Origin: a virus
Virus record (IMG/VR): IMGVR_UViG_3300047392_000117
Location: 1-40,366 of that record
DNA: 40,366 bases
Direction: 5' to 3' (one strand)
Shown here: piece after piece, positions 128-39,666 of the stretch
Layout of the letters: each line of letters begins with the position of its first letter
Numbering within the stretch: position 1 is the stretch's first letter
Translations under genes and position numbers: made by a program
Notes under the pieces: generated by a model
Database searches by the model: none
The model's input: only the letters and a program-made list of their open reading frames with translations
Told to the model about the DNA's origin: nothing

Positions 128-325
128 TCCGAACAATGGGCGGCGCGAGAGCTGGCCAAGCATGGAACGCGAGAAAGCAAAGCGGCCCGCCTAGCGTCTG
201 AGCAATCGTTTCAAGCTCTAATGGCGGATATAAAGCGGCCCGCTAGCGTATCGGCCCGCGATTGGGCCGAAAGCGGCAAGAGCCATGCGCTCTTGATTGC
301 CCAATTGAAAGCGGCCCTAGCCTAA
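119..325 (+). CDS. Small hypothetical protein (68 aa)
   Basis: I do not recognise this protein. It begins MTQSEQWAARELAKHGTRES, is rich in Ala, Ser and Lys, looks helical and soluble, and has no membrane segment. An upstream in-frame start at 8 is rejected because it would read through the terminator at 38-72. The ATG at 119 has a well-placed AAGGAA. The gene shares the codon style of the 38-40 kb small-gene block (Gln as CAA, frequent CTAG) and belongs to that block across the circular junction. It is followed by the 15-bp repeat arrays. Confidence 0.65.
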   Translation: MTQSEQWAARELAKHGTRESKAARLASEQSFQALMADIKRPASVSARDWAESGKSHALLIAQLKAALA

Positions 326-345
326 GCCCATGCGCCCTAACCAAT

Positions 346-390
346 CGCCCAATCGCGGCCCGCCCAATCGCGGCCCGCCTAATCGCGCCT
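346..390. repeat. Tandem array of three 15-bp units
   Basis: The unit CGCCCAATCGCGGCC occurs at 346-360 and 361-375, and a diverged unit CGCCTAATCGCGCCT follows at 376-390. The array lies just downstream of the gene ending at 325. Open frames across it only encode a 5-residue repeat, so it is treated as non-coding. It may be a protein-binding array or a slippage-expanded intergenic repeat. Confidence 0.75.
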
Positions 391-400
391 ATGCAATGCC

Positions 401-489
401 GCGCCCTAGCGCCATGCGCCCTAGCGCCATGCGCCTTGACGCCCTGCGCCCTGCGCCATGCGCCCTATCGCCATGCGCCCTAGCGCCAT
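401..489. repeat. Tandem array of six 15-bp units
   Basis: The unit GCGCCCTAGCGCCAT occurs at 401-415, 416-430 and 475-489. Variants lie at 431-445, 446-459 (14 bases) and 460-474. It has the same period as the array at 346-390 but a different sequence. Tandem direct units beside a regulator gene resemble iterons or a repressor-binding array, but no AT-rich block adjoins them, so the function is open. Confidence 0.75.
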
Positions 490-493
490 GCGC

Positions 494-683
494 CCACGAC
501 CAGAAACCGCAGAAATGCGTCGGGAAAATTGCGATCCACTCGCCAAAATATGTGGAAATACAAAACTGGTTGCCGTGGGCAAATTTCAATTCGATCAGAA
601 TTTCCAAATGAATTGGAATCCTGGCGCCGCGGGGATACCCCCATAAAGGTTGCATTACCCACCCCCTCACGTTAAACAAGGGG
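494..683 (+). promoter_or_regulatory. Control region upstream of the XRE regulator
   Basis: No credible gene lies here. Two adjoining inverted repeats are visible: AATTC/GAATT at 588-592 and 598-602, and TTCCAA/TTGGAA at 602-607 and 613-618. They form a compact operator-like site. A promoter-like pair follows, TTGCAT at 650-655 and TTAAAC at 672-677 with a 16-base spacer. It would start transcription at about 684, the A of the ATG of the next gene, giving a leaderless message. The promoter and operator are inferred from pattern only. Confidence 0.4.
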
Positions 684-1800: not shown

Positions 1801-2224
1801 CGTTCTTTTCCCTTATCTCAAAGCCACGGGCTTCCAGTGTGGCGCGGAGGTCTTCAACCCAAGATTTAGCGACGGTGTTGTGTAAACCCCAAGCTTCTGC
1901 AATCTCACGCAGCGGGTCAGGCTTGGGCTTGGGGATGATGAAGCGGGAAAGAACGCCTTTGCGGCGCAGGCTCTCAACATCACCAAACGACAACGCTTGC
2001 TCCACTACATCGCTCACCTTCTGCTTGAAGTCGGCGAGTTCCTGCTTGCAGTCGGCAAGTTCCTTCTGGGTATTTTCGTGCAGTTGGATGGAGCGGATAA
2101 AGGCACTAGTTTCAGGGGTGTCGATTACCAGCCAATCGAGTAGCCTAATCCCACGTTGCTGCCGATATTCGTTAATCAGGTCTATGCCAATTTGCCTAAA
2201 CTTTTCTTTTTCAATGTCGCTCAT
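1793..2224 (-). CDS. Hypothetical early protein with coiled coil (143 aa)
   Basis: Begins MSDIEKEKFRQIGIDLINEY. A predicted coiled coil around residues 48-75 contains two similar heptad-like stretches (ELADCKQ, ELADFKQ). The C-terminal third is basic and mixed. The ATG at 2224 overlaps the upstream stop as ATGA and was preferred to an earlier in-frame start inside the upstream gene. Its own end overlaps the next gene by eight bases. No function is recognised. Confidence 0.6.
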   Translation of the reverse strand: MSDIEKEKFRQIGIDLINEYRQQRGIRLLDWLVIDTPETSAFIRSIQLHENTQKELADCKQELADFKQKVSDVVEQALSFGDVESLRRKGVLSRFIIPKPKPDPLREIAEAWGLHNTVAKSWVEDLRATLEARGFEIREKNDD

Positions 2225-2691
2225 ACCATCCACCCCACTGCATGAAGATTCTTCAGTCCGTCGCGGCACCAAAGAAGGGCGTCGATCTGCTGCCTCTCGG
2301 ACATCGGGCCGTGTGTCTTGCCCGTAGCGAAGATCGCATCGGCCAGTGCCTTCGACCCGCGCTTGCAAGCATGTTTGTAGCGTTGTGCCGTGTGTTCACG
2401 CGGCGGTGGATCGGCGACCTCACGCTTGGCGAAATATGCTGGCGACGGGTTGACCTTACGATCCAACAGATTCCGCACAGAGGTGCGGTCACGACCGACC
2501 ACCCTGGCGATGGTAGCGATTGGCAGATGCATACCATGAAGCAAGCGGCACAAGGCGGTACGCGCCGCGACCAGCTTCTCTTGTTTGCTTGGCCCCAGCA
2601 GTTGCATGATGGTGATGTTGTACTCGCCTGCGATGCGGACAATGGCCGGCATGTGGTTGAGCGTGTCTTCGGTTAGATTGACTTCGTTCAC
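2221..2691 (-). CDS. DnaA domain IV-like DNA-binding protein
   Basis: The 156-residue product has a GTG start preceded by AAAGGA. Residues 38-78 resemble the DNA-binding domain IV of DnaA: a helix with ARTALCRLL, then a loop, then GRDRTSVRNLL, close to the GRDHTTV signature that contacts DnaA boxes. No AAA+ domain is present. The C-terminal half is basic. It follows the primase-helicase in the same operon, so it may mark or open the phage origin, or may compete with host DnaA. The domain resemblance is seen in the sequence, while the role is inferred. Confidence 0.65.
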   Translation of the reverse strand: MNEVNLTEDTLNHMPAIVRIAGEYNITIMQLLGPSKQEKLVAARTALCRLLHGMHLPIATIARVVGRDRTSVRNLLDRKVNPSPAYFAKREVADPPPREHTAQRYKHACKRGSKALADAIFATGKTHGPMSERQQIDALLWCRDGLKNLHAVGWMV

Positions 2692-2717: not shown

Positions 2718-4952
2718 TCAGTCCTCAATAGCGAGAGGATCAGGCCAGTCAACCTGATATTGATGCTTCTTGGAAAAAAGACGACGCGCCTCGGTCAGCG
2801 ACGCCACGGTGCATATTTTGTACCGCGCACCCGCCGCGTATTTGCCCCTGCTGTTGGCGAACACGTCGTCATAGCGCGCAGCCATCGTCCAGAACGCATT
2901 GGCGCTCTTGATCTCCCAATGGCGTTGCAGCGAGTTGCGGTAGCTCTCGTAGATCGTGGCCTTGTTGGCCTCGACCTCGCCGAACTGGACCACCGCCCCG
3001 CTCTTGCTGTCCTTGATCTCGCCTTCCATCAGGCAGTCGAACAGCCAACGCTGGACGCAGTCACCGCCACGCATCTGCTGATCCTGCAACGCCTTCGTCT
3101 GCGGGGCAGTGCGGACGTTGACCGTCGCCAGATCGAACGTCTTGAGGTGGTGCAGCAAATGCTTCTTGCCGCCACGGTCGTACCAGTTCTGCAAACCCTG
3201 GTAGAAGTCATAGTCCTGCTTACGCCGTGCGCTGATGTCGAACACGGCCCAGCGGCGCTCGTCCGCCGTGGCTGGCACGACCCACTCCTCGTTCGACGTG
3301 AACAGGATGCGGGTGAAGTTCGGCGCCATGTAGCTGTCCACGCCCTTGCGCTCAATCATGATGCGAGGGTTGGTGACGAGGTCTTTCAGTGCGCCTTCAG
3401 CTGACTTGCTGCCCGCCCAGAACGCCTCTTCCGCTTGCAGGAGCAGGCAGTCTTCCAGATGGCGGTTGAAGTTGCCGACCAGCTGCTCTTGGCGCGCGAT
3501 GACCTTGTGGTGCTGCGGGAACAAACCGCCCAGCAGTTCACCCAGCTTCGACTTGCCGGTGCCTTTAAGGCCACGCAGCACACAGGCCACGCCGATCTTC
3601 GTCATCGGCTCCTGCACCATCTGTGCAGCCCAGCCCATGATCCATTTATAGTTCGTCTCGTCGCGGTCGGCGATGATGTCGAACATCCAGTCGGTGAACA
3701 TCGACACGTCGCCCTCTTCCGGCTCACAAGACCAGCCGCGCCACAGGTTGTACGCGCCGATCTTCTGGCCCTCTGGCAGGAACACTAGGCCGCGCGCCGT
3801 GCGCCGTTCGGGGTGCGTGAGCCAGAGCTTGATCGGGTTGACCATGTCAACGACCTCTTCGCCTTTCTTGTTCTCGGACTTGACGGGGATCGACTGGTTG
3901 GCGAATTCCTTGGTCAAATCCTCGACGCCGTAAAGCTCCAGCCCGTCCTGTATGTCGTCTTCGCGGATGACCCGCGCACTGCCCGACACCTGAACGAACA
4001 CCAAGTCCTTGACCAGCTGGTCAACCAAGCCGCGCTTCTTCTCTTCACGCACGACCTTCTTGGCCTTGCCTTCGATGTAAGCGGCGGTCACCGGCTGGGC
4101 GCTGGAGTTGCGACCGAACGAGCGCCACCGCTTGGCGCACTCACCGTGAACGTATTTGCCGCTCTGGCTCGACCAGTCATCCCACAGGCGCAGACCCTCC
4201 GGTTCGCCGTCCGTTTCGTGGTGCAGCGCCATGCCGACCTTCACCCACTCATCGTGGCCACAGTCAGGGTCGAGGCTCTCCATCCACGCCTCAAGGTCGG
4301 CCACACTTTTGCCCAACTTTGGCCGCAATGTCAGTAGATCATCGTCATCCCCGTGCGTGACCGACACGCCTTTGCGCGACAGTTCCCAATCTTCAGGGAT
4401 GATGCTTTCGAAATAGGCGACAAACTCTTGCGCCTGTTCCTTGGTCAGCGTCGGCAGATCGTCGTGCGGGACGTCGATCAGCGACTTCTTTGGCCAAGCG
4501 TAGGGCTGCTGCGTATCAGGGTGGACGGCGTAGGCGACGAACTGCTGCCCCTTGGCCAGCACCTCGACCGCGTTCTTGTTGCCCAGGATGTCCACATATT
4601 CGTTCGACCGAATCTTACCGAACGGCTCGTCGCAGCGGAACACCATCAGCGCCTTCGGCTTCTTGCCGATCCGCAGCGGTGCTTTGCCGATGTTGTTCTC
4701 GACCCACTTCACCAGCTTGTAGCTGACGTCCTTGTCGAGACAGTCGATGTCGATGGCCGGTGTGTTCTCGGTCAAGATGCCGACACCGCAGTTCGCCATG
4801 CGTGGATCGCTTAACCACTGATCCATCTTGTCAGCGTCAGCGTGGCAGTTCTGCCAGTCGCTGATGGCCGGCGCTTTGAACCCTGCCCTAATAGGCAGTG
4901 GGGAATACCCTGCTGCTATCAGTTGCGCGCCGTGTAATTTCAGGTAAGACAC
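2718..4952 (-). CDS. PrimPol primase-polymerase fused to a helicase-type NTPase
   Basis: This 744-residue early protein makes primers and probably unwinds DNA. The N-terminal archaeo-eukaryotic primase/PrimPol domain (about 1-190) has the catalytic D68-I-D70 pair. A PriCT-2-like domain follows at about 215-290. The C-terminal half is an NTPase of the DUF5906/D5 type, the group that includes the NrS-1 phage polymerase helicase part, with Walker A GLKGTGKS near residue 461. The GTG start at 4952 is chosen because GGAGGAAAGGA lies just upstream. A longer TTG start at 5012 would overlap the neighbouring gene. It is the central replication protein of the leftward operon. Confidence 0.88.
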   Translation of the reverse strand: MSYLKLHGAQLIAAGYSPLPIRAGFKAPAISDWQNCHADADKMDQWLSDPRMANCGVGILTENTPAIDIDCLDKDVSYKLVKWVENNIGKAPLRIGKKPKALMVFRCDEPFGKIRSNEYVDILGNKNAVEVLAKGQQFVAYAVHPDTQQPYAWPKKSLIDVPHDDLPTLTKEQAQEFVAYFESIIPEDWELSRKGVSVTHGDDDDLLTLRPKLGKSVADLEAWMESLDPDCGHDEWVKVGMALHHETDGEPEGLRLWDDWSSQSGKYVHGECAKRWRSFGRNSSAQPVTAAYIEGKAKKVVREEKKRGLVDQLVKDLVFVQVSGSARVIREDDIQDGLELYGVEDLTKEFANQSIPVKSENKKGEEVVDMVNPIKLWLTHPERRTARGLVFLPEGQKIGAYNLWRGWSCEPEEGDVSMFTDWMFDIIADRDETNYKWIMGWAAQMVQEPMTKIGVACVLRGLKGTGKSKLGELLGGLFPQHHKVIARQEQLVGNFNRHLEDCLLLQAEEAFWAGSKSAEGALKDLVTNPRIMIERKGVDSYMAPNFTRILFTSNEEWVVPATADERRWAVFDISARRKQDYDFYQGLQNWYDRGGKKHLLHHLKTFDLATVNVRTAPQTKALQDQQMRGGDCVQRWLFDCLMEGEIKDSKSGAVVQFGEVEANKATIYESYRNSLQRHWEIKSANAFWTMAARYDDVFANSRGKYAAGARYKICTVASLTEARRLFSKKHQYQVDWPDPLAIED

Positions 4953-4974
4953 TCTAATTCCTTTCCTCCGAACT

Positions 4975-5003
4975 GGGTCGTCTTTCGGGACGGCCCTTTT
5001 TTT
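4975..5003 (+). terminator. Rho-independent-like terminator facing the plus strand
   Basis: GGGTCGTC at 4975-4982 pairs with GACGGCCC at 4989-4996, with one G-T pair and a six-base loop, and is followed by seven T residues on the plus strand. Both flanking genes lie on the minus strand, so this hairpin would stop antisense transcription. On the minus strand it has no U tract and should let the operon through. Confidence 0.5.
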
Positions 5004-5253
5004 ATTCGCCAAGGGCGCGGTTCAAATACCAAATGGCCTTTTTCAGGCTCTCGTCTTGGCCTTTGTGCTTTTCACGCCAGATGTACTTGAGCGAATTGCC
5101 CTTGCAGTAGCCGCGAAACTCTTCCCGCGTCAATGCCGATTGGATGGCGTCGATACATTCGACGTCACCCTGGCGGTAGTGCGGCGGGTGATTGACGAAA
5201 TCTGCATCTGGGATCGCATCACGCAACGCGCGGTATTGATCAGCGATGCTCAC
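5002..5253 (-). CDS. DUF3310 (SaV-like) protein
   Basis: This 83-residue protein matches the DUF3310 pattern: NHPPHY near residue 21, then ECIDAI, FRGYCKGN, and a C-terminal KYIWR with LKKAIWYLNR. The family is small, widespread in phages and often called a nucleotide kinase-like protein, but its activity is not established. Its ATG overlaps the upstream stop (ATGA at 5250-5253). The primase-helicase follows 49 bases downstream, so the two are probably co-transcribed early genes. Confidence 0.85.
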   Translation of the reverse strand: MSIADQYRALRDAIPDADFVNHPPHYRQGDVECIDAIQSALTREEFRGYCKGNSLKYIWREKHKGQDESLKKAIWYLNRALGE

Positions 5254-5510
5254 TTCGACACCGCCGCCAGCAAGCTCAGGCGAAGCTCTTCAGCAACATG
5301 TGGGCAGAGTTCGTGCCACTGCACTCCCCCCTTGGTGAGCATGGACATCTGAAGTGCGCGCTTCACTGGCACACCGTCCACGACCCACTTGTATAGAGCC
5401 TGTGTGGACACGCCGAGAACGCCGCACAGCCGACGCATGTTGCCGCCGGTCGCGATCTGGGCCACTCGCTCGACCGCTGCACGAATTTTCTTTTCTTCAT
5501 CTTTAATCAT
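5250..5510 (-). CDS. YdaS/Cro-like HTH regulator
   Basis: The 86-residue product has the YdaS/Cro-superfamily pattern: a helix-turn-helix with LCGVLGVSTQALYKWVVDGV and a C-terminal tail where WHELCPHVAEELR matches the usual H-E-L-R/C-P end. Two adjacent ATG codons (5513 and 5510) follow AAGGAG. The second, with seven bases of spacing, is preferred, and a GTG at 5528 would overlap the Shine-Dalgarno. As first gene of the leftward early operon beside the divergent control region, it probably binds operators at 5511-5606. YdaS can pair with a YdaT toxin, but none is seen here. Confidence 0.75.
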   Translation of the reverse strand: MIKDEEKKIRAAVERVAQIATGGNMRRLCGVLGVSTQALYKWVVDGVPVKRALQMSMLTKGGVQWHELCPHVAEELRLSLLAAVSK

Positions 5511-5606
5511 CATTTTTCTCCTTGACACATATTTGTGAGTTGCTAACTAGGGGTTGTCGCCGCACATTTACAGCGTCGAAACGAAGTGTCAACTGGAGAA
5601 TTGAAA
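5511..5606. promoter_or_regulatory. Divergent early control region
   Basis: This 96-base gap separates the leftward and rightward early operons and must hold their promoters. A TTGACA box lies at 5522-5527 on the plus strand, but no good -10 box follows at 16-18 bases. CACATATTTGTG at 5526-5537 is an imperfect palindrome overlapping that box and is a candidate operator for the adjacent Cro-like protein. AACTAGGGGTTG at 5545-5556 recurs, inverted, at 13601-13612 upstream of the integrase. Confidence 0.45.
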
Positions 5607-36551: not shown

Positions 36552-37136
36552 CTATATTTTCGACGGGTCTATGCCCGCTGCTTTAAGGGCTTCGACGGCG
36601 TCGTCAAACGACATTTTCGTTTCCACCTGTAAACGCTGATCCAATTCCTGCTTATCAGCCCAGCCGCCCTTGTTCTTCAGGAAGAAGATCGCCGCAGCGA
36701 CATTCCCTTTGAGCGCCATGCCGAAAAGGCTGTCGGTCACCATCTTGATGCCACGGGAAGTCCCTTGGTCGATGGCCTCCTGCACAGTCGGATCGTTCTT
36801 TATGAGCTTGCCGAACACGGACGGGGGTAACTTCAGCGCATCGGCGATCTGCTTGGTGGTCATCCCCACACTGGCCATCGCCTCGACCTCCGAGAGATCG
36901 ACCTTCGGCTGCTTATAGGTGCGACCGGCGTCGTCGATGATGTCGCGGGCTTCGTGGATGCGTTTCGGGAGCGGGGGCAGAATCTCCACTTCGGGAAGTT
37001 CTTCATCCTCCTGTACGGAAATCGGTACAGGTTTGGCTTTCGGCTTCGCGACGGGTTTCCGTTTGGCAGCGGGAGCCGGCGGTGGGGTGTCCATCGCCAG
37101 GTATGGTAGCACAATACTGTCAAACGGATCGCTCAC
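36552..37136 (-). CDS. terS: Terminase small subunit (putative)
   Basis: The 194-residue protein has a Pro/Lys-rich disordered N terminus (PPPAPAAKRKPVAKPKAKP), then a helix-turn-helix-like DNA-binding domain with MTTKQIADALKLPPSVFGKL at about 95-120, and a helical oligomerisation part (KGNVAAAIFFLKNKGGWAD) that also occurs in other phage small terminases. It should recognise the packaging site, possibly the palindromic repeats just upstream at 37208-37594. GTG 37136 with AGGA nine bases upstream is preferred to TTG 37154. Confidence 0.78.
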   Translation of the reverse strand: MSDPFDSIVLPYLAMDTPPPAPAAKRKPVAKPKAKPVPISVQEDEELPEVEILPPLPKRIHEARDIIDDAGRTYKQPKVDLSEVEAMASVGMTTKQIADALKLPPSVFGKLIKNDPTVQEAIDQGTSRGIKMVTDSLFGMALKGNVAAAIFFLKNKGGWADKQELDQRLQVETKMSFDDAVEALKAAGIDPSKI

Positions 37137-37207
37137 TGCGCGTTGTCCTGTCAAGTTTCGGTGGTGTTGTAGTCGGGCCAGTGGGTGAACGCAAGCTCCG
37201 ACGTGCG

Positions 37208-37594
37208 ATTACACACCCTTGGCGGAGGGGCGCAAGGGTGTGTAATAGGGTGTGACGAATAAAATCAATGACTTAGCAGGAAATTACACACCCTTGGAAA
37301 TCGGGGTCGCAAGGGTGTGTAATCGCGCAACGCCTAGAGAATCCTAGGGTTTTTGGGGTGTTTTGACCAAAATTACACGGGCTAGGCACTTTTTTGGGAA
37401 ATTCGCCAGAGGGTGGTGCAGTGGCACACCAACACCCCCTTTTTAGTATTTATATATATTTTTATTTTCCCTTAGAAAAAAAGAGAAAAGGGTGTGTGGG
37501 TGTGTAATCGGACCAAAAAGTCGAGGAGTTCTGCGGCTTTGAGGTCTACACACCCTATTACACACCCTTGGGACTTTTTCGAAGGGTGTGTAAT
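37208..37594. repeat. Palindromic octamer repeat region with AT-rich core
   Basis: A 14-bp sequence ATTACACACCCTTG and its exact complement form palindromes at 37208-37221 with 37233-37246 and at 37283-37296 with 37310-37323. A third, 13-bp version lies at 37557-37569 with 37582-37594. The core octamer ACACACCC or GGGTGTGT also occurs at 37490, 37498 and 37548, nine full copies in all. A very AT-rich stretch (37443-37490) lies between. No gene is seen. It may be an origin, a terminase recognition site or a late-gene control region. Confidence 0.8.
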
Positions 37595-37747
37595 TTCTAC
37601 TGGCCCTCTCCGCCTGGCGATCCCCGCCGTGCAAGCAAAGGTTGACTCAGCTTTTGAGATTTTCGCGGAACGGCCTATATGCCCATCACGGGACGCGGGG
37701 GTGCGGAGACCCCCTCCCCCCGCCCCCGTTCGCGCGAAACCCGCGGA

Positions 37748-38811: not shown

Positions 38812-39666
38812 ATGCTAATGCAAACTAATCCAGCCAATGCCCTTGCTTTTGATATCAGCGCGCTATCGCTTGACATTCAATTGCAAATTTTATCCAGCGA
38901 CAAAAACAGATCGCTATTCGCGCGCTTTCCAGAAAAGCTCTTAGGCCTTGATACAAACGCGAAAACGATCAAGGGCGAAAAATACGGGATCAAAACCGCC
39001 ATATTGTATCTTATGCCCGCAATGGGATCAGGCGTGCAATTGTGCCCAATGGCAAAGCTCGCCAAATGCGACGGCCCTTGCCTATTCACGGCGGGCCGCG
39101 GCGCTATGTCTAACGTTATGTTATCGCGCCTTAGAAAAACGCTATATTTCAACCAATATCGCGATCAATTTATGGCGCAATTGTACAGTGAAATAGCGCG
39201 TGAAAGCGCCAAGGCCAAGCGCAATGGCTACAAGCTTGTTGTCAGGCCTAACGGCACAAGCGACATTCGTTTTGAGAATATCGCCGTGCCGCACCCGCGC
39301 CTAAATTTTAATGCCTACGCCAATATTTTTGAGGCATTCCCGAACGTTCAATTCTACGATTATACAAAGATCGCTAATCGCAAGAATATTCCAGCAAACT
39401 ATGATTTGACGTTTAGCTATAGCGGCGTCCCCGCCTATGCGCCCTATGTCGCCAAGGCCGTCGCCAATGGTGAGCGGATCGCTGTTGTTTTTCGCAACCG
39501 CGCCATAGTTGAAGCAATGCTAGCCAATGGCGAAACGTTCCTAGGCCTTCCCCTAGTTGACGGCGACGACAGCGACATAAGGCACCTTGATCCGCGCGGC
39601 GCGATTGTGGCGCTATACGCGAAAGGCAAGGCCCGCAAAGATACAAGCGGCTTTGTAGTAGGATAA
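38812..39666 (+). CDS. GP88-like protein with CX7CX3C motif (284 aa)
   Basis: The central pattern LYLMPAMGSGVQLCPMAKLA, then KCDGPCL, gives cysteines at C78, C86 and C90 and matches the LPA...CP...C...C core of the phage GP88-like family. A second family element, VVRPNGTSDIRFENIA with PNVQFYDYTK, follows. The family is common in phages and its function is unknown; related DUF5131/Gp37-Gp68 proteins are predicted radical-SAM enzymes, so an Fe-S role is possible but not shown. It is the largest gene of the small-gene block and has no CTG leucine codons, unlike the replication genes. Confidence 0.7.
   Translation: MLMQTNPANALAFDISALSLDIQLQILSSDKNRSLFARFPEKLLGLDTNAKTIKGEKYGIKTAILYLMPAMGSGVQLCPMAKLAKCDGPCLFTAGRGAMSNVMLSRLRKTLYFNQYRDQFMAQLYSEIARESAKAKRNGYKLVVRPNGTSDIRFENIAVPHPRLNFNAYANIFEAFPNVQFYDYTKIANRKNIPANYDLTFSYSGVPAYAPYVAKAVANGERIAVVFRNRAIVEAMLANGETFLGLPLVDGDDSDIRHLDPRGAIVALYAKGKARKDTSGFVVG

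Follow-up and report, generated by a model that had tools for sequence, protein, structure and literature searches.

The locus considered here raises the question which function is served by a compact array of short repeats that surrounds an AT-rich block next to a terminase gene, and which protein reads it. The window, i.e. the whole stretch of DNA that was analysed (IMG/VR record IMGVR_UViG_3300047392_000117), is a complete-looking circular record of 40,366 bases with a terminal overlap of 127 bp. The initial annotation considered an iteron-like origin read by a PrimPol-helicase or a DnaA-like protein, a packaging site, or a control region for late promoters. The analysis below indicates that copying of the phage DNA most likely starts at the repeats in 37208-37594.

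Repeat array and AT-rich core

The octamer GGGTGTGT occurs nine times, always within 37208-37594 (plus strand at 37236, 37313, 37490, 37498 and 37584; minus strand at 37211, 37286, 37548 and 37560), and is absent from the rest of the window. The word GGGTGTGTAAT has seven exact copies, every one inside the same region and none outside; when at most one mismatch is allowed, eight copies are observed against 0.32 expected from dinucleotide shuffles, where the largest number found was 2. Three inverted pairs with arms of 13-14 bp and spacers of 11-13 nt, together with extra tandem copies, flank the AT-rich block. The nine octamers, the three palindromes and the 48-base AT-rich stretch described in the initial annotation were thus all recovered, and the elements are arranged as follows.

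37208-37246: inverted repeat pair 1 (ATTACACACCCTTG / CAAGGGTGTGTAAT), 14-bp arms, 11-nt spacer, closest to terS
37283-37323: inverted repeat pair 2, 14-bp arms, 13-nt spacer
37372-37384, plus strand: degenerate copy with 4/13 mismatches, on the terS side of the AT core
37440-37487: AT-rich core, 85% AT, presumed unwinding element
37488-37508, minus strand: two copies in tandem that point towards the core (ATTACACACCCACACACCCTT on the minus strand)
37545-37557: extra tandem copy, adjoining pair 3
37557-37594: inverted repeat pair 3, 13-bp arms, 12-nt spacer, at the end distant from terS

The segment 37440-37487 is the 48-mer with the highest AT content in the genome, and the core is also the least stable 50-mer of the genome (-49.6 kcal/mol, compared with a mean of -74.5 and an sd of 4.8 kcal/mol). 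At the site of the degenerate copy, an intact copy facing the core is present in clade B and in locus L024 (see below). GC skew shows no turn at the repeat site, either in the window or in relatives; it was set aside as evidence because gene direction dominates the skew in a 40-kb phage. Outside the repeats, a G-rich block (GGGGGTGCGGAGACCCCCTCCCCCCGCCCCCG, 37690-37735) is kept in clades A and B, and several clade B contigs start near the equivalent block.

Gene neighbourhood and the PrimPol-helicase

Leftward structural genes lie on one side of the array and rightward early genes on the other. The array is 54 bp from the start of terS in the window, and terS is followed leftward by terL and the genes for portal, scaffold and major head protein. 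The side away from terS harbors the replication genes, which encode a 764-aa PrimPol, a DNA polymerase, a gp2.5-like single-strand binding protein, an exonuclease and an SNF2-type helicase. On the circle, about 5.4 kb and several genes separate the PrimPol stop codon from the repeats. The genes that are relevant to recognition of the repeats are listed here.

36552-37154, minus strand: terS, neighbour of the repeats
2718-5012, minus strand: PrimPol-helicase, 764 aa, with Prim-Pol, PriCT_2 and DUF5906 helicase domains and a C-terminal winged helix; proposed initiator
2769-2981, minus strand: winged-helix codons (PrimPol residues 678-748), which co-vary with the repeat word
2221-2691, minus strand: DnaA domain-IV-like HTH protein, 156 aa, beside PrimPol
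5250-5528, minus strand: Cro/YdaS-like HTH protein, conserved neighbour upstream of PrimPol

The Prim-Pol (PF09250), PriCT_2 and DUF5906 domains of PrimPol are Pfam assignments, and the winged helix was recognised in an AlphaFold model of residues 641-764 (pLDDT 83), which consists of two helices, a recognition helix and a two-stranded wing. Searches with Foldseek and VIA-align returned mostly winged-helix domains (RFX, PadR, ORC/Cdc6, Cdt1), with weak scores (best E 0.04, Z 5.8); the origin-binding domain of phage P4 (1ka8) is among the structural matches with a Z of 4.2, tied with many others. The winged-helix sequence gave zero matches when it was searched against the PDB. For the helicase part, the closest solved relative is the primase-polymerase of phage NrS-1 (PDB 6k9c, E 5e-13, query residues 430-613).

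Other elements of this region are mobile or variable. A GP88-like gene (PF17338) lies to the right of the proposed origin in the window (38812-39666), whereas a similar gene is inverted between origin and terS in L083 (14310-15065) and L199; the gene therefore seems to have been relocated around the origin. Separate short tandem arrays occur between PrimPol and the origin (window 270-500; L066 13304-13400; L069 10389-10490; L070 6842-6967; L076-L083 near the origin). Their unit varies by lineage, for example a 15-nt unit with GCCATGCGCC, the 8-nt unit AGGCGCAG and the 14-nt unit ACCGCGACAAATCG.

Conserved layout and variable words in related phages

An array of the same layout between PrimPol and terS was located in about 20 related IMG/VR phage lineages, with words that are lineage-specific and include TTACACACCC, GCACCCACCC, GGTCAAGG, ACTCAGGG, CTCACAGG and CGCACGGG. 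Apart from the cultured phages, the loci compared here are metagenome contigs or viral predictions. The upstream regions of 13 TerS relatives have an identical layout wherever they are long enough to show it, and contain two words: ATTACACACCC in clade A (the window, L023, L024 and L025) and GCACCCACCC in clade B (L026-L035). The AT core (TTTCTAAGGGAAAA...ATATATAAAT...AAGGGGGTG) aligns between the two clades despite the different repeat words. In L024, L029 and L031, a small cysteine-rich HNH-like ORF is found between the repeats and terS, immediately upstream of the latter.

Phages with a PrimPol of 46-49% identity display the order PrimPol, small genes, repeat array, terS, terL. Their words are GGTCAAGG, ACTCAGGG, TGCACAGG(G), CGCACAGG, CTCACAGG, GTGTCAGG, CGCACGGG, GTACGGGG, GGCACGGG, GGCACAGG and CTTGAACG. 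Copies facing the core on both sides and outer inverted pairs recur across lineages with similar spacing; the arrays of L176 and L177 contain degenerate copies. The word is also restricted to the cluster in G002, G030, G032 and G033. A cluster was located in six genomes, counting the window, and its AT block takes the first rank within the genome in four of them and the second rank in the other two. The initial annotation proposed to search relatives for the same repeat upstream of terS; place and layout proved to be conserved, but not the letters of the repeat.

In an exact-motif scan of viral contigs, multi-copy matches were confined to clade A, and the single-pair matches in other phages may be due to chance; a scan of genome contigs gave distant relatives only. 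The cultured Rhizobium phage RHph_X2_30, with a PrimPol of 30% identity, has a similar array layout with the word CTTGGACC, and the stretch of PaMx74 that was viewed contains no comparable repeat cluster. In Vibrio phage VP2 (L219, PrimPol 27% identical), copies of ACGGTGGACA are clustered on both strands upstream of terS (39187-39400); this cluster overlaps the annotated ORF VP2p46, which may be spurious. One siphovirus contig (G012; loci L035 and L054-L056) ends with approximately 1 kb of clade B terS and repeats. Transfer of TerS and repeats into an unrelated siphovirus was considered and rejected, and G012/L035 was excluded because it is probably a chimeric assembly: the segment is located at a contig end and a probable second terminase is found elsewhere.

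The repeat word and the PrimPol winged helix co-vary

Fixed differences between the PrimPols of clades A and B are concentrated in residues 678-748 (21 of 71 positions, compared with 46 of 672 elsewhere; Fisher p ~1e-7), a segment whose boundaries were first noticed in this same A/B comparison, one of the 153 pairs tested. In the AlphaFold model, most of these differences map to the recognition helix and the wing. Residues 678-748 are 94-97% identical in pairs of phages that share a word, whereas they form the least conserved segment in most pairs with different words.

In partial Mantel tests with 18 loci, the word correlated with the winged helix when the PrimPol body was controlled for (r=0.38, p=0.0016) and more specifically with residues 700-735, which comprise recognition helix and wing (r=0.44, p=0.0002, body controlled), while it did not correlate with the PrimPol body when the winged helix was controlled for (r=-0.07, p=0.69); the p values of these and the following Mantel tests are guides, because some of the loci are closely related and common ancestry is incompletely removed by permutation. 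Two loci from outside the test set follow the same pattern. The winged helix of L175 is 91% identical to that of L161, which has the same word, and L176 has its nearest winged helix in L184, with both words containing CACGGG or a close form. The co-variation is imperfect: L172 and L186 both carry CTCACAGG, yet their winged helices are just 59% identical, and the similar words of L073 and L165 go with winged helices of 41% identity. In view of these exceptions, the word may be set by a few contact residues, with the remainder of the domain drifting, or part of the similarity may be convergent.

Closely related phages with different words provide a natural double swap. When L199 (GGTCAAGG) is compared to L180 (GTACGGGG) and L184 (CGCACGGG), the PrimPol body and the aligned DNA from PrimPol to the origin are mostly 80-95% identical, whereas identity drops to about 48-70% in the winged-helix codons and to ~40-55% over the whole origin. 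In the pair L199/L083, which shares a word, the origins are 86-97% identical. The terS gene is a third variable patch in the L199/L180/L184 set and varies independently; for L184 and L180 the winged helices are 94% identical and the origins are related (54-82%), with terS at 60-64% over much of its length. Together, co-variation and double swap indirectly suggest that the C-terminal domain of PrimPol determines which word is recognised.

Other candidate readers and functions

The array might instead be a packaging site, with TerS binding the repeats beside its own gene and the AT block acting as a bend or cleavage region. This would resemble phage lambda, where gpNu1 binds the R sites of cosB. 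TerS possesses an HTH, and the repeats precede its gene in almost every relative as well as in the window, where 54 bp separate them from the start of terS; the word also shows a raw correlation with the TerS HTH (r=0.45). However, this correlation disappears once the PrimPol winged helix is taken into account (r=0.09, p=0.29, partial Mantel with the 16 loci that have TerS), whereas the correlation of word and winged helix persists with the TerS HTH controlled (r=0.41, p=0.001, same 16 loci). Clades A and B, which differ in word, share 84-88% identity in the TerS HTH, compared with 91% within clade B; conversely, L184 and L180 have related words and 94% identical winged helices, although their TerS HTHs are only 57% identical. 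Moreover, the repeats are 1.6-3.4 kb away from terS in L083, L199 and L188, showing that genes can intervene. The partial Mantel tests and the locus pairs led us to reject TerS as the reader, and we consider a packaging function improbable.

A role in transcription control, with the repeats as operators of a phage regulator or of an autoregulatory PrimPol in a divergent late/early promoter region, would fit the position of the array between leftward structural and rightward early genes and the Cro-like protein that adjoins PrimPol in all lineages checked. The recognition helix of this Cro/YdaS-like protein (5250-5528) is nevertheless essentially unchanged across phages with differing words, including those of clades A and B, and the protein was discarded as reader for this reason. 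Some ten copies around the least stable block also look like an origin rather than an operator. Control of late promoters, as initially proposed, is therefore an unlikely primary function; a regulatory side effect of PrimPol binding is compatible with the data. Finally, opening of the origin by the DnaA domain-IV-like protein (2221-2691) or by host DnaA instead of PrimPol is highly implausible: this phage protein is encoded beside PrimPol and matches PF08299 (E 6.5e-6, under the curated cut-off), but it is restricted to clades A and B and gave no match in the searched C-lineage loci, which have the identical origin layout, and its HTH differs within clade B (G009 vs G010) under a single word, so that it too was rejected as the reader.

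A probable replication origin with the PrimPol-helicase as proposed reader

The repeats, their two-sided layout, the AT core, the conserved place and the co-variation of word and winged helix can be read directly from the genomes. One short word clusters in a single non-coding region, an AT block lies amid the repeats, and the same phage encodes a protein with primase, helicase and C-terminal winged helix. On this basis, a podovirus-like phage of ~40 kb very probably has its replication origin at 37208-37594, with PrimPol (2718-5012) binding the word via its C-terminal winged helix. The iteron-origin proposal of the initial annotation is thereby strongly supported by the co-variation as far as the PrimPol-helicase is concerned, whereas its DnaA-like alternative fails since this protein is absent from most lineages.

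We infer physical binding and initiation by PrimPol from the co-variation described above and from the established P4 alpha and SaPI Rep systems (PMC4234260, PMC7581432). Several PrimPol-helicase molecules would bind the inward-pointing copies on either side of the AT block and assemble rings or load the helicase, which would then melt the AT core; the Prim-Pol domain could subsequently synthesise the initial primers from which the phage DNA polymerase extends, so that replication would start at the array.

According to PMC4234260 (citing Ziegelin and Lanka 1995 and Yeo 2002), phage P4 alpha combines primase, helicase and C-terminal winged helix in one protein that binds repeats of the phage origin, a combination that resembles the system predicted here. 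P4 alpha (ori/crr) differs in having a TOPRIM (DnaG-type) primase instead of an archaeo-eukaryotic Prim-Pol (PF09250), and P4 is a satellite, whereas the window represents a full phage that encodes a polymerase itself. SaPI Rep and SCCmec Cch2 are described in PMC7581432 (citing Ubeda 2007) as self-loading helicases with a C-terminal domain that recognises a short-repeat origin, similar to what we predict for PrimPol. The SaPI origin is located directly downstream of rep, whereas that of the window is ~5.4 kb past the PrimPol stop, beside terS, and has inward-pointing inverted copies flanking the AT core on both sides.

The domain order Prim-Pol, SF3 helicase, C-terminal winged helix is shared with pRN1 ORF904 and phage BIP-1, which also have a small DNA-binding regulator gene adjacent to the replication gene (PMC4234260). 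The origin proposed for these elements is a single ~100-bp stem-loop just after the gene, unlike the multi-copy 13-14-bp pairs around a distant AT core found here; the single-stem-loop model would not suit this phage family. The NrS-1 enzyme (6k9c) likewise has a Prim-Pol and a helicase ring, but it recognises an 8-nt template word that occurs twice in the NrS-1 genome (PMC7102993), in contrast to a repeat array with a proposed winged-helix reader. In PLE, the DNA-binding domain of the initiator RepA_N and the origin repeats co-vary and swap as modules, and the origin-directed nuclease Odn of ICP1 copies the specificity of the initiator and selects for switching (PMC8263062). The modular co-variation is similar to that seen here; RepA_N is, however, an unrelated initiator with no predicted primase or helicase, from a satellite element for which the nuclease is known, whereas the window encodes a Prim-Pol-helicase in a full phage.

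Origins whose repeats are read by the C-terminal domain of the initiator (P4 alpha, SaPI Rep) and co-varying initiator/origin modules (PLE) are thus already known. The present case differs in its Prim-Pol-type initiator, the distant location on the terS side, the two-sided layout and the number of words. No report of the origin of this phage family was found in searches of an open-access library. To our knowledge, the origin is known for few phage initiators of the Prim-Pol-helicase type.

Change of the repeat word

Origins usually rank among the most conserved sites, which raises the question why the origin changes so fast in this phage family. The family is a natural record of lock and key changing together, because repeat word and winged helix keep changing in concert. 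Tentatively, it may re-key its origin repeatedly, with every copy of the word switching together with the winged helix of PrimPol, by recombination or concerted change, in a nearly constant surrounding genome. The likely driver in that case would be an arms race in which satellites, rival phages or nucleases exploit the origin, a cause that is guessed by analogy to PLE.

About a dozen natural pairs of word and winged helix, some in nearly matched backgrounds, constitute a ready-made specificity code, and swapping the winged helix only should alter which origin fires. L063 (3844-6126) encodes a natural recombinant PrimPol, which joins a clade A body to a winged helix 100% identical to that of clade B (L085). 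The contig stops short of the origin, which is predicted from the winged helix to bear the clade B word.
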